From Komagataeibacter oboediens (lineage in GTDB: Bacteria > Pseudomonadota > Alphaproteobacteria > Acetobacterales > Acetobacteraceae), in the NCBI RefSeq assembly GCF_003207815.1, contig NZ_NKTX01000001.1, positions 62,001-126,000 of the forward strand: a stretch of DNA of 64,000 bases. The letters run 5' to 3'. Every line of letters starts with the position of its first letter. The stretch's first letter is position 1. Position numbers and translations under genes: made by a program. Of this stretch, positions 37,608 to 42,414 are shown piece by piece. Below the pieces are notes generated by a model. It saw only the letters and a list, made by a program, of their open reading frames with translations. It was not told the origin of the DNA and searched no databases.

Positions 37608-38831
37608 TCAGATCGGCATGGCACGTTCAAAGATGTTTTCCAGCGCCATGATGCCCGGCAGCGTCTTGCCTTCCATCCATTCAAGGAAAGCCCCGCCCGC
37701 GCTGGAAATATAGGAGATATGCTTCTCCACCCCCGCATGGCGCAGGGCCGAAACCGTGTCTCCACCGCCCGCGATGCTTTTCAGTGCGCCGGAATCGGTC
37801 AGGCGGGCGACGTCGCGCGCTACGGCATTGGTTGCCGCGTCGAACGGCGTGATCTCGAACGCGCCCAGCGGGCCGTTCCAGACCAGCGTCTTCAGTGTCG
37901 CGATCTTCTGCTCGATCAGCTTCACCGTTTCCGGCCCGACATCCAGCATCATGGCATCAGCAGGAATGGCGTTGACGGGCACGGTGCGGGTCGGGACATT
38001 GGCCTGGAAGTCGGTTGCGGTCACGGCATCAACCGGCAGTACGATCTCGCAGCCCTTTTCCTTTGCTTTCGCAAGGATGTCGCGCGCGGTGTCGTGCATC
38101 TCCGCTTCCTGCAGCGACCGGCCCACATTCACCCCCTGTGCCGCAAGGAACGTGTTGGCCATGGCGCCACCAATGATCAGCATGTCCACTTTTGCCAGCA
38201 GGTTGCCGATCAGGTCCAGCTTGGTGGAAATCTTGGCCCCCCCCACGATGGCCCCGACCGGGCGGGCAGGGTTTTCCAGCGCGATGTTCAGCGCGTTGAG
38301 TTCCGTTTCCATCAGCCGCCCGGCAAAGGACGGCAGCAGGCGGGCCACGCCTTCGGTCGAGGCATGGGCGCGGTGGGCGGCGGAAAACGCGTCATTGACG
38401 TAATAATCGGCCAGCGACGCGAACTCCTTCGCCAGCGCGGGGTCGTTCTGCTCCTCCCCGGGGTAGAAGCGGGTGTTTTCCAGCACCACCACATCGCCAT
38501 CCTGCATGGCGTCCACCGCCTGCCGGGCCTTCGGGCCGATACAGTCATCGACAAAGGTGACCGGGCGGCCCAGCGCATCTCCCAGCGCATCGGCAATCGG
38601 GCCAAGCGACATTTCCGGCACGGGCCTGCCCTTGGGGCGGTCGAAGTGACTGACGACAATCACCTTCGCACCCTTCTGGGCCAGTTCCTGAATGGTGGGC
38701 AGCAGGCGCAGGATGCGCGTGGCGTCGGTGATCTGGGCATTGCGGACCGGAACGTTCAGATCGGCGCGCAGGAGGACCTTCTTGCCAGTGGCGTCGAGGT
38801 CATCCAGCGTCTTGAAGGATGTGGCGCCCAT
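37608..38831 (-). CDS. pgk: Phosphoglycerate kinase
   Basis: 407 residues from the ATG at 38831, which shares one base with the gap stop (TAATG). Typical PGK blocks are [71 protein letters not shown] and the ATP-site [12 protein letters not shown]. It transfers phosphate between 1,3-bisphosphoglycerate and ADP. It is the third gene in a transketolase-like-gap-pgk operon and is coupled to gap. Confidence 0.97.
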
Positions 38832-39853
38832 TACAGTGCCCCGAATACGGCCGCCGTGTCGGCCATGCGGTTGGAGAAGCCCCATTCATTGTCATACCAG
38901 CTGCAGATGCGCACCAGCCTGCCACCGTCGATCACGGCGGTCTGGGTCGCATCAAACGTGGATGACGCGGGGCAGTGATTGAAATCCGTGCTGACCAGCG
39001 GCGCGGTGCTGTAGGCGAGGATGCCCTTCAGCGGGCCGGATTCGGATGCCTTGCGCAGTGCTTCGTTCACCTCCTCGACCGAGGCCGGGGCCTTCTTCGG
39101 CACGAAGTCGAGCGAGACGAGCGAGACATTGGGCGTGGGCACGCGAATCGCGGTGCCATCCAGGCGGCCCTTGAGGTGCGGCAGCACCAGCCCCACGGCG
39201 CGCGCGGCCCCGGTGGAGGTCGGGATCATGTTCAGCGCCGCCCCGCGTGCGCGGCGCAGGTCCTTGTGCAGGGTATCCACCGTGCGCTGGTCGCCGGTGT
39301 AGGAATGGATGGTGACCATGTAGCCGCATTCGATGCCGAACGTGTCATCCAGCACCTTGGCCACCGGGGCCAGGCAGTTGGTGGTGCACGATGCGTTGGA
39401 AATGACGGTCATGTCGGGCGTCAGCACATCCTGGTTCACGCCGAACACGATGGTGGCGTCCACGCCCGATGCGGGGGCGGACACGATCACCTTGCGCGCG
39501 CCGGCCTTGATCAGCTGGGCGGCCTTTTCCTTGTCGGTGAAGCGGCCGGTGCATTCCAGCGCCACGTCCACGCCCTGGAACGGCACCTTCGTCGGGTCGG
39601 CCTCGGCCGAGACGGTGATGGGGTCGTAGGTGCGGCCGTTGGCGGTAATGATGATCTGATTGCCATCCACCTTCACATCGGCGGGGAAGCGACCGTGCAC
39701 GCTGTCATAGGACAGAAGGTGTGCGTTGTCTGCCACGCTGCCGAGGTCATTGATGGCGACGGGCACGACATCGGTACGCCCGCTTTCGATAATGCCACGC
39801 AGCACAAGGCGACCAATGCGACCGAAACCGTTTATTGCGACTTTAACAGCCAT
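38831..39853 (-). CDS. gap: Glyceraldehyde-3-phosphate dehydrogenase
   Basis: 340 residues. The NAD-binding Rossmann start [16 protein letters not shown], catalytic C156 in SNASCTTNC, the His in [10 protein letters not shown] and the C-terminal [12 protein letters not shown] are all intact. The AINDLG segment carries the Asp typical of NAD-preferring enzymes. It feeds the lower trunk of glycolysis and receives Entner-Doudoroff triose phosphate. A GGAG lies about 11 bases before the start. It follows the transketolase-like gene by 30 bp and overlaps pgk. Confidence 0.97.
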
Positions 39854-39883: not shown

Positions 39884-41821
39884 TCACACACTGACATCGG
39901 CCGATGTCATCCCGGGCGGCGCGCCGTTTCCTCCCGCCGGTTCAGTCAGGGTATCGGACAGGGGACGGACCAGACGCAGCGCGTCGCGGCAGATCCGTTC
40001 CGGCGTGATGTCAGTCGCGCTGTCCGGCTGGTCCGGGGCGGCCGTCCCGAACCCGTCAATGCCAACAAACAGCCCGTCTGTCCCAAGCCAGCGTTCCCAT
40101 CCAAACCCTGACGCGGCTTCAATGCCGATCCGGGGTGCCGTTCCCAGCACGGCGGCACGATACGTCATTTTTTGCGCGGCGAACAGTTCCCAGCATGGAA
40201 GGGATACGACAGCCGCCGCAACCCCTGCGTCCTTCAACAGTTTGCGTGCCGCCAGCGCCAGTATCGCCTCGTGCCCCGTGGCGACCAGCGTGACCTGCCG
40301 CGTCCCTTCGGCTTCCGCCAGGACGTAGCCGCCGCGCGCGCACAGGTTGGTCAGCCCGTGCTGTTCGCGTTCCGGGGCGCCCGCCGTCGCCATCGCAGGG
40401 GCGGATTCCAGTGTCAGCAGGCTGGGGCCGCTGGTCCGCCGCAGCGCCAGTTCCATGCATTCCATCGTCTCGCGGTGGTCTGCAGGGCGGAAAACCGCCA
40501 CGTTTGGCATGGCGCGCAGGCTGGCCAGCTGTTCCACCGGCTGGTCGCCCGCTGCGCCGTCGCCGCTCAGCAGGTCGTCATCGGTCAGCAGGTAGATCAC
40601 CTGCAGGTCCGTCATGGCGGCATAGCGCAGGGCGGGGCGCATGCGGTCCACCGCGATGATGGTCGATGTGCCCGCCGCCAGCAGTCCGTCATGCATGGCG
40701 ATGCCATTGAGCAGGGCCGCCATGCCATGCACCTGCGTTCCGCATGACAGGTCCGCCTCGCCGCCGTTGCGGCGGTTCGTGGGCAGGTCGGCCAGCATGC
40801 CCCGGCGCGAGCGCAGGCAGGTCAGTTCCGGCAGGAGTTCATGCAGCGTCTCGAGTCCCCTCCGGGCCGCGAACGTGGGGGCGACACGGGCGATGGCGCT
40901 TCCGTGTTCGCGCCATGACCGTTGCCAGTCGGGCTGCCAGAAGGCGGGGCGCTGGTTGTGGGCCATGCGTTCGAATTCGGCCTTCTGCCGGTCCTTGAGC
41001 AGCCGGCGTAGCCACGAGCGCCGCGCGCTGGCCCCACGCCGTGCGGCGCCCGCCCACAGGCCCGGATCATCGACAAAAGGGGGCGGCGGGTCGATTTCCG
41101 GTGAGGCGATGCATGCGATCAGGCAGGGCTTGTGCGTGCGCTGTGACGACGTGATGGCGGCAGCGATCTGTTCGGGGCTGTCGGCGTCCACCTTCCGCAC
41201 TGACCAGCCCGATGCGCTGTAGCGCGGCAGGATGGCGTCCACGGCCTCGCGCTCGCTTGTCCACAGGCCGACGACCAGCGTGACCCGGTCCAGCCCCATC
41301 TGGCCCGCAAGCGCCGCACTTTCCAGCGCGACGCCGGTGGACAGTTCGGTCCAGCAGCCCAGCCCCCATATCCGGTGGTTGACCAGTGATCGTCCAAACC
41401 GTGCCGCCAGCGTCTGTTCCGCCAGCGCCATGCCGATCGCGGCCCCCAGCCCCTGCCCGCTGGGGCCGCAGGCCTGACGGTCATGCGGCGGGGCGGGGTG
41501 GTCACCCACGCGTGGTGGAAGCGGCGCCTGTCCCGACAGTTCGGCCATGATGCGCGGCAGCACGCGATAGCGGGGGGAGGACACCACGAAGCGGTCCCGG
41601 TCCGGCCACTCCGGGCTGGCGGGATCGAAGCGCAGGAAACGACTCCACAATACCGCGCAGAAACACGACATGACCCGGGCATGGGGGGCATAGCGGCGAT
41701 TGGGTTCATGGATGCCGATGGCATGGCGGATGGCCGTCGTCAGCCGCTGCGGCATGCTGGGGGCCGCGGCTGGCAGCGTGGCGGGCGGGGTCATGCTGAT
41801 CTGGTCTGTTGGCATCGGCAT
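39884..41821 (-). CDS. Transketolase-like protein lacking catalytic and cofactor residues (probable pseudoenzyme)
   Basis: 645 residues and collinear with transketolase over the whole length, e.g. WPDRDRFVVSS, GPSGQGLGAAIGMALAEQTL, GMAALLNGIAMHDG, DQPVEQLASLRAMPN and ARGGYVLAE. By alignment with remembered E. coli TktA, H26 becomes Y44, H66 R84, the metal-binding D of GDG becomes L154, N185 W187, the catalytic E411 V364 and H473 D414. The spacer between domains is also shortened. It therefore almost certainly cannot bind or use thiamine diphosphate in the normal way. It occupies the tkt position of a tkt-gap-pgk operon and has no internal stop, so it is probably expressed. A regulatory or scaffolding role is speculative. 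Confidence 0.8.
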   Translation of the reverse strand: MPMPTDQISMTPPATLPAAAPSMPQRLTTAIRHAIGIHEPNRRYAPHARVMSCFCAVLWSRFLRFDPASPEWPDRDRFVVSSPRYRVLPRIMAELSGQAPLPPRVGDHPAPPHDRQACGPSGQGLGAAIGMALAEQTLAARFGRSLVNHRIWGLGCWTELSTGVALESAALAGQMGLDRVTLVVGLWTSEREAVDAILPRYSASGWSVRKVDADSPEQIAAAITSSQRTHKPCLIACIASPEIDPPPPFVDDPGLWAGAARRGASARRSWLRRLLKDRQKAEFERMAHNQRPAFWQPDWQRSWREHGSAIARVAPTFAARRGLETLHELLPELTCLRSRRGMLADLPTNRRNGGEADLSCGTQVHGMAALLNGIAMHDGLLAAGTSTIIAVDRMRPALRYAAMTDLQVIYLLTDDDLLSGDGAAGDQPVEQLASLRAMPNVAVFRPADHRETMECMELALRRTSGPSLLTLESAPAMATAGAPEREQHGLTNLCARGGYVLAEAEGTRQVTLVATGHEAILALAARKLLKDAGVAAAVVSLPCWELFAAQKMTYRAAVLGTAPRIGIEAASGFGWERWLGTDGLFVGIDGFGTAAPDQPDSATDITPERICRDALRLVRPLSDTLTEPAGGNGAPPGMTSADVSV

Positions 41822-41949: not shown

Positions 41950-42414
41950 ATGTCCCGTCCGTTCCCGCGCCCCGTCCGCCGTGCCGTCCTTGCCGCCGCA
42001 GCCTGCCTGCCGGTGCTGGGCGGGTGCGCGCTGGTCAGCCAGAAAACATTCAACCGCCATGCGGGCGACCCGCCACAACTGCCGCAGCGCCCGCCGCCAC
42101 CGGTGCCCGGCATGGACCGTCCCGCGCTGGTCACGATCGTGGCCGGGACGCCGGAAACACAGTGGAAACCCGCCGTCCGCGCCGCCGTGGCCGATGCCCT
42201 GTCGCGCAAGCCCAATGCGCTGTTCACCATCGTGGTCAGCGTGCCCGAGCGCGCCGATGGCAGCCTGCCGGACATGCCGAAGGTGGTGGATGCGGATGGC
42301 CAGCCTGTCCTGCAGGCGGTGATGGATGCCGGCGCGGGCGGGGGACAGACGGAAATGGACGCCCGCAGCGTGCCCGCGAACAGCGCAACGCAGGTCTGCA
42401 TTTACGCGGAGTAG
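41950..42414 (+). CDS. Small lipoprotein of unknown function
   Basis: 154 residues from the ATG at 41950. The N-terminus RPVRRAVLAAAACLPVLGGC is a lipoprotein signal with lipobox LGGC. A Pro-rich linker (PPQLPQRPPPPVPG) leads to a domain of about 95 residues beginning PALVTIVAGTPE. The domain contains AAVADALSRKPNALFTIVVSV and ends in CIYAE. It may span the periplasm from the outer membrane. I recognise no family. It diverges from the transketolase-like gene; the starts are about 130 bp apart. Confidence 0.65.
   Translation: MSRPFPRPVRRAVLAAAACLPVLGGCALVSQKTFNRHAGDPPQLPQRPPPPVPGMDRPALVTIVAGTPETQWKPAVRAAVADALSRKPNALFTIVVSVPERADGSLPDMPKVVDADGQPVLQAVMDAGAGGGQTEMDARSVPANSATQVCIYAE

Follow-up and report, generated by a model that had tools for sequence, protein, structure and literature searches.

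Evidence for a transketolase pseudoenzyme under selection in a tkt-gap-pgk operon of Komagataeibacter

The locus

The window, meaning the whole stretch of DNA analysed, comprises 64,000 nucleotides of Komagataeibacter oboediens (contig NZ_NKTX01000001.1). Its minus strand carries, in this order, a transketolase-like gene (pseudo-tkt), gap and pgk, with pseudo-tkt directly upstream of gap. The features referred to below are, in window coordinates:

39884..41821, minus strand: pseudo-transketolase gene, 645 codons, start possibly at 41815 (Met3)
41261..41356, minus strand: region of the former ThDP/Mg motif, residues 156-187; by alignment, W157 is at the site of the GDG Asp and W187 at that of the metal-binding Asn
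41036..41113, minus strand: shortened active-site loop, residues 237-262; 26 residues against 58 in intact copies, H261 lost
40721..40738, minus strand: TQVHGM, residues 362-367, in place of the REH block; Val364 is at the site of the catalytic Glu
40031..40333, minus strand: C-terminal transketolase domain, residues 497-597, where more ancestral residues are kept than in the other parts
39887..39961, minus strand: C-terminal tail, residues 621-645; near-neutral (omega 0.967 over 25 codons), used as an internal control
38831..39853, minus strand: gap (glyceraldehyde-3-phosphate dehydrogenase), starting 30 bases downstream of the pseudo-tkt stop
37608..38885, minus strand: pgk (phosphoglycerate kinase); the start of the open reading frame falls inside gap, and the true start is probably nearer 38830

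The original prediction placed a full-length transketolase pseudoenzyme at 39884..41821 and left the strand unstated; the span stands, and the gene sits on the minus strand. The frame, when re-read, is intact over its 645 codons, as had been claimed. Translation may begin at residue 3 (41815): of 18 further matches from the genus, 9 start there, and an AGGA lies 8 bases before Met3, against only 2 before Met1. The nearest named relative is K. intermedius TF2, whose version of the protein shows 98% identity. Upstream, on the plus strand at 41950-42414, is a small divergent gene whose product has a lipoprotein-like N-terminus; its matched stretch contains a stop at six named loci, which may only reflect a query taken from an upstream TTG (41809).

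Family membership and lost residues

A phmmer comparison with PDB transketolases gives the window protein a best E-value of 3.4e-68, and Pfam finds Transketolase_N (1.4e-24), Transket_pyr (6.1e-16) and Transketolase_C_1 (1.6e-30); with such values the match is not a chance one. The PP, Pyr and C-terminal domains follow in the usual order, with PF00456, PF02779 and PF22613/PF02780 all above their cut-offs. The NCBIfam equivalog model TIGR00232 scores the protein at 273.6 bits, below its cut-off of 682.25.

To read the residues, the protein was aligned with the genome's own intact Tkt (L001/L121), with E. coli numbering assigned by motif. Relative to the intact enzyme, the window protein has H26Y, H66R, D155W, N185W, E411V and H473D, and further changes are R410Q, F434A, Y440R and H461D. 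The predicted replacements of H26 by Tyr, H66 by Arg, the metal-binding Asn by Trp, E411 by Val and H473 by Asp are thus all seen, as is the reading of the REH/REF block as TQVHGM; the residue at the metal-binding Asp of GDG, given earlier as Leu, is Trp in the alignment. None of the seven cofactor and catalytic residues (the Mg/ThDP ligands, including the GDG Asp and the Asn, and the catalytic Glu and His) is kept, and the alignment places none of them elsewhere in the protein. A change absent from the original prediction concerns the H261-bearing loop, which lies between PP domain and linker: it is exactly 58 residues long in 26/26 intact reference copies and 26 residues long here. With this active-site loop excised, the protein is not quite of full length. 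As expected of a pseudoenzyme, it belongs by homology to an enzyme family but has lost the residues essential to that family.

Distribution in Acetobacteraceae

A search of 60 relatives found the dead copy in all 19 genomes of Komagataeibacter (in one of them split over two contigs), and all 13 named loci with a dead copy belong to this genus. E411, D155, N185 and H473 are lost in 19/19 Komagataeibacter copies, and His is still present at the H26 column in 7/19 rows.

The wider family search covered 397 genomes, at least 238 of them with a strong match. Together with follow-up fetches, it places degenerate copies in at least 76 genomes from at least 20 Acetobacteraceae genus codes; this lower bound includes partial copies, the early-stage copy L204 and three copies cut by contig ends (L021, L091 and L118). 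Over 73 degenerate rows, N185 and H261 are kept in none, H473 in 1, H66 in 4, D155 in 12, H26 in 14 and E411 in 21, and no row keeps more than 3 of the 7 residues. Among 13 intact rows, 12 have the complete set of seven and the remaining one is truncated at the N-terminus. The three degenerate copies beyond the 73 keep 0 (L210), 4 (L211) and 5 (L204). Loop length is 18-43 residues in 28 of 31 degenerate representatives; it is 57 in L204 and 58 in L211, and L118 is cut by a contig end.

Some copies are only partly degraded. L211 (G030:C20, genus g13) is an in-operon copy that keeps the full loop and H261 but is missing other residues, an order of loss unlike that of the rest. L204 (G191, genus g116), also in the operon, has its ThDP/Mg ligands but shows H261R, H473Y, F434Y and I189R and has lost one loop residue; the genome of G191 has two other tkt genes. 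Genus g116 as a whole ranges from an intact copy in G268, where it is the single tkt, through the early stage in G191 and partial copies in G133 and G298 to a heavily degraded one in G233.

Outside the family, a one-piece match at class level (G500) was considered as a further dead copy and rejected, the copy being intact; among the matches listed, where residues were left unread, there is no other one-piece match from outside.

Recurrence of the degeneration

For counting changes, we used a tree of gap and pgk from 61 loci (30 degenerate, 31 intact), which is independent of the fast-evolving Tkt; a tree based on Tkt itself, in which dead copies have long branches, was set aside for this purpose. 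On the gap+pgk tree, degenerate and intact copies are interleaved, with 9 changes on the best tree and 6 when partial copies are left out. A single origin of the degenerate copies is rejected (AU p 1.1e-39), a value to be read with the caution that 9/61 rows cover less than half of the columns, one of them only 14%, and that several of these are within-genus cases. The best supported recurrence is in g121: starred branches place the dead copies from G194 and G301 next to intact copies from G138 and G087. Many other nodes are open. Loss of the catalytic parts of the operon transketolase thus seems to have happened repeatedly and independently within the family.

Operon position and the second transketolase

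The position before gap is kept. Of the 70 degenerate loci (54 unnamed, 13 named and 3 more), 69 have gap downstream on the strand of the pseudo-tkt, no more than about 310 bases away. Only G158 (L076/L223) departs from this: its pseudo-tkt frame is intact, but the fetched stretch contains no gap. There, the gene lies at 6074-7999 of L223 (G158:C144), not adjoining gap; the long frames that come after it on that strand begin like an aconitase-type protein and the elongation factor LepA.

A second, canonical tkt, which the original prediction had proposed to look for, is present elsewhere in the K. oboediens genome, and every genome examined that has a degenerate copy contains another tkt (76/76, that is 73 plus 3). 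Its motifs were read and found in 30/30 cases, 27 by the first pattern and 3 with REHVM for REHAM, and the remaining 46 rest on score. Where the copy beside gap is intact, 23 of 31 genomes have no other tkt match at E 1e-60. These 31 are the intact-copy genomes of the gap+pgk tree; intactness was judged by residues for most and by score in eight (G033, G021, G130, G080, G068, G077, G065 and G076), and G365, G094 and G251 were left out as having no intact copy shown beside gap. On the tree, 9 independent pairs bear on the association of a second tkt with degeneration, and the 4 of them that are supported do not suffice for significance. The type of the other Tkt varies: its likeness to the query is 93-100% in Komagataeibacter and 45-48% in g121, g110, g123 and most of g78.

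Eleven genera have no tkt match within 1.5 kb upstream of gap (30 genomes tested), and in these the operon tkt seems to have been lost altogether, which indicates that the gene can be lost and any job it has is dispensable in some lineages. The tkt-less gap loci are L172-L179, L185, L191 and L192, many of them from small genomes; three more gap loci with no tkt match were set aside (a contig end, a short stretch and a distant gap paralogue). Pyruvate phosphate dikinase occurs in 26/30 dead-copy genomes versus 2/11 of those with no tkt upstream of gap (Fisher p 9e-5), and on the tree this link comes to 3 independent pairs, 1 of them on supported branches (40 of 41 genomes, with G158 dropped for want of gap in its locus). 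As a lead from very few independent events, the co-occurrence would fit a gluconeogenic role.

Selection on the dead copy

Codon models were fitted to 18 Komagataeibacter dead copies, leaving out the cut copy L021. Because all copies of the genus share the loss, their omega describes evolution after catalysis had gone. The overall value is 0.118, a one-ratio estimate that hides differences between sites; by region it is 0.098 in PP, 0.085 in the linker, 0.092 in Pyr and 0.144 in the C-terminal domain, against the 0.967 of the tail. Comparison genes give 0.047 (intact tkt), 0.030 (gap), 0.054 (pgk), 0.055 (kbl), 0.066 (ftsY), 0.088 (dsbA) and 0.009 (recA). The codon alignments lost rows to stops (1 in kbl, 6 in lipo) and others to short matches, and lipo was dropped from the comparison. 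By a simple count method, the median is 0.195 for the dead copy, 0.183 for dsbA and 0.045 for gap. Other degenerate groups are similar: 0.107 in g67, 0.104 in g97, 0.130 and 0.122 in g55, 0.081 in g78 and 0.197 in g121, from a short tree search with L076 (g55) and L096 (g78) left out; intact operon tkt copies give 0.081. Selection thus acts at the level of the protein. Constraint from an antisense gene was ruled out, each antisense frame having 1-14 stops at 12 of the 13 named loci (L044 was left out).

Could the gene simply be a slowly decaying pseudogene? The dead copy does evolve faster than intact tkt, and the gene is absent in some genera. From the inferred changes, though, about 64 nonsense changes would be expected in Komagataeibacter under neutrality, and no stop lies inside any of the 19 matches; stops, frameshifts and an omega near 1, the usual signs of a pseudogene, are not what is found. 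We give decay next to no credence, in agreement with the original argument that ordinary decay would have brought stops. Alternatively, the frame could be kept for reasons in cis, as protection of gap-pgk from polarity or as a signal for gap expression, and the presence of gap downstream of all but one copy would suit this. Such a role predicts an omega near 1; the observed values of 0.08-0.20 are alike over the four domain regions, with only the tail near neutrality, and moreover 11 genera have gap with no tkt within 1.5 kb, while G158 has kept the frame away from gap. We regard it as very improbable. The low omega in seven groups and the lack of stops make decay and a frame kept against polarity alone both unlikely. 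With selection, stop-free orthologues and an intact tkt elsewhere in the genome, the analysis supports the central claim of the original prediction, that the window gene encodes a transketolase pseudoenzyme kept in a tkt-gap-pgk operon.

What the dead copies retain

Of the columns conserved in intact copies, 25 degenerate representatives keep the largest fraction in the C-terminal domain (0.74), followed by the linker (0.61) and by PP and Pyr (0.47 each), the PP value including the deleted loop and one copy that is cut there. Within Komagataeibacter, the C-terminal domain is no more constrained than the rest (omega 0.144 vs 0.085-0.098).

The former pocket could have acquired a new activity, either catalytic and ThDP-free or ligand-binding. 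In the acetic-acid-bacterium clade, Arg393 (at the former pocket Tyr440) and Gln431 are each fixed in 12/12 representatives, which would suit such a change, but Arg393 is absent from most other degenerate lineages, where the column holds A, C, F, H, S, T, W or Tyr (R recurs in L095 and L071), and the 12 clade representatives show no conspicuous cluster of new catalytic-type residues. We consider a new activity improbable.

AlphaFold2 models, made from 13 close sequences, have mean pLDDT values of 42 and 51, which is low confidence, so folding is something that we still infer. A PDB search with the full model lists transketolases first, but with an rmsd near 20 and a TM of 0.3, and adds little beyond the sequence.

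The main rival explanation is that the dead copy serves as a regulatory subunit, forming mixed dimers with the intact Tkt and tuning its activity. In transketolase, the active sites are found where the two subunits of the dimer meet, an interface formed mostly by PP and Pyr, and a partner Tkt is available in every genome with a degenerate copy. Evolutionary rates over 24 genomes point the same way at first sight, the dead copy covarying weakly with intact Tkt, at a partial r of 0.36 (p 0.016). The same measure is higher for an unrelated neighbour, kbl (0.58, the strongest), so that rate covariation does not discriminate; pgk gives a weak 0.31 (p 0.038), and with gap (0.09) no link is seen across these genomes (dsbA and ftsY were dropped for missing taxa). 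Against mixed dimers, too, the domains that make up most of the interface are the least retained, and the type of the other Tkt differs by lineage. On the whole we find mixed dimers unlikely.

A proposed explanation

The product of pseudo-tkt is very probably a non-catalytic protein maintained by selection, judging from its residues and codon substitutions. It would descend from the transketolase that was originally in the tkt-gap-pgk operon and would still fold, but would no longer bind ThDP or act as a transketolase, that activity being supplied by the second tkt. We suppose that the operon transketolase had, besides catalysis, a job for which the protein scaffold suffices, above all that of the C-terminal domain. 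Once another tkt had taken over catalysis, the operon copy could have lost its active site and kept the second job, several times over. In its full form, this explanation, that pseudo-tkt is kept for a non-catalytic role which the operon copy already had, is one that we hold to be probable on the sequence evidence. Because the protein has been kept several times over, it is also somewhat likelier than not that this job is older than the loss of catalysis. Loss in the presence of a backup is also expected if the operon copy was merely free to change, and recurrence alone is no proof of an ancestral job.

What the job might be is a guess from synteny: the protein may bind the co-expressed Gap/Pgk step and modulate or scaffold it, the point at which, in these bacteria, triose phosphate passes between the pentose phosphate pathway and gluconeogenesis. 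We think this particular assignment fairly doubtful. A broader conjecture, somewhat short of even in our estimation, is that the Tkt of the alphaproteobacterial tkt-gap-pgk operon always had a second, non-catalytic function, probably in its C-terminal domain, as a scaffold or metabolite-gated regulator of Gap/Pgk, and that Acetobacteraceae expose it by stripping catalysis away time and again with the protein retained, g116 still showing the steps in between.

Relation to known systems

Compared with canonical transketolase (TktA/TktB, EC 2.2.1.1), the window protein has the same three-domain order, length, C-terminal domain and position before gap-pgk; what it lacks are the H261 loop and the residues for cofactor, metal and catalysis. 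Its closest known parallel is human TKTL1, likewise a transketolase relative with an active-site deletion. The 38-residue gap of TKTL1 reportedly lies in another part of the N-terminal domain. TKTL1 is a vertebrate paralogue, whereas pseudo-tkt is bacterial, operon-borne and recurrent and combines point losses with a loop deletion. A TKT delta-38 model of TKTL1 is reported to fold, with no specific ThDP binding and no detectable activity (PMC3485151), and the activity of TKTL1 itself is reportedly disputed (PMC6334435). Split-chain transketolases (PDB 6yaj/6yak) are a further non-standard transketolase architecture, but they are named as two chains of one enzyme, and pseudo-tkt is one chain with no active site. 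Searching the open-licence literature (subscription papers were outside its scope), we found neither a bacterial dead transketolase nor functional data on one. Two genome papers, in the sections available to us, list four tkt loci (PMC5908849) and two (PMC3751514), none of them flagged as inactive; these loci are not equated here with the dead copy.

The comparison suggests that pseudo-tkt is a bacterial variant of the pseudoenzyme theme, with a role that needs no catalysis. Annotation is affected, in that tkt genes are listed, as far as the sections of those papers go, with no inactive copy marked. To our knowledge, it is unsettled what the C-terminal domain of transketolase, a part outside the active site, does. 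A selected pseudoenzyme that arises repeatedly at one operon position amounts to a natural experiment separating catalysis from the other roles of transketolase, and pseudo-tkt genes open the role of the C-terminal domain to testing in vinegar and cellulose bacteria, which can be cultured and are genetically tractable.
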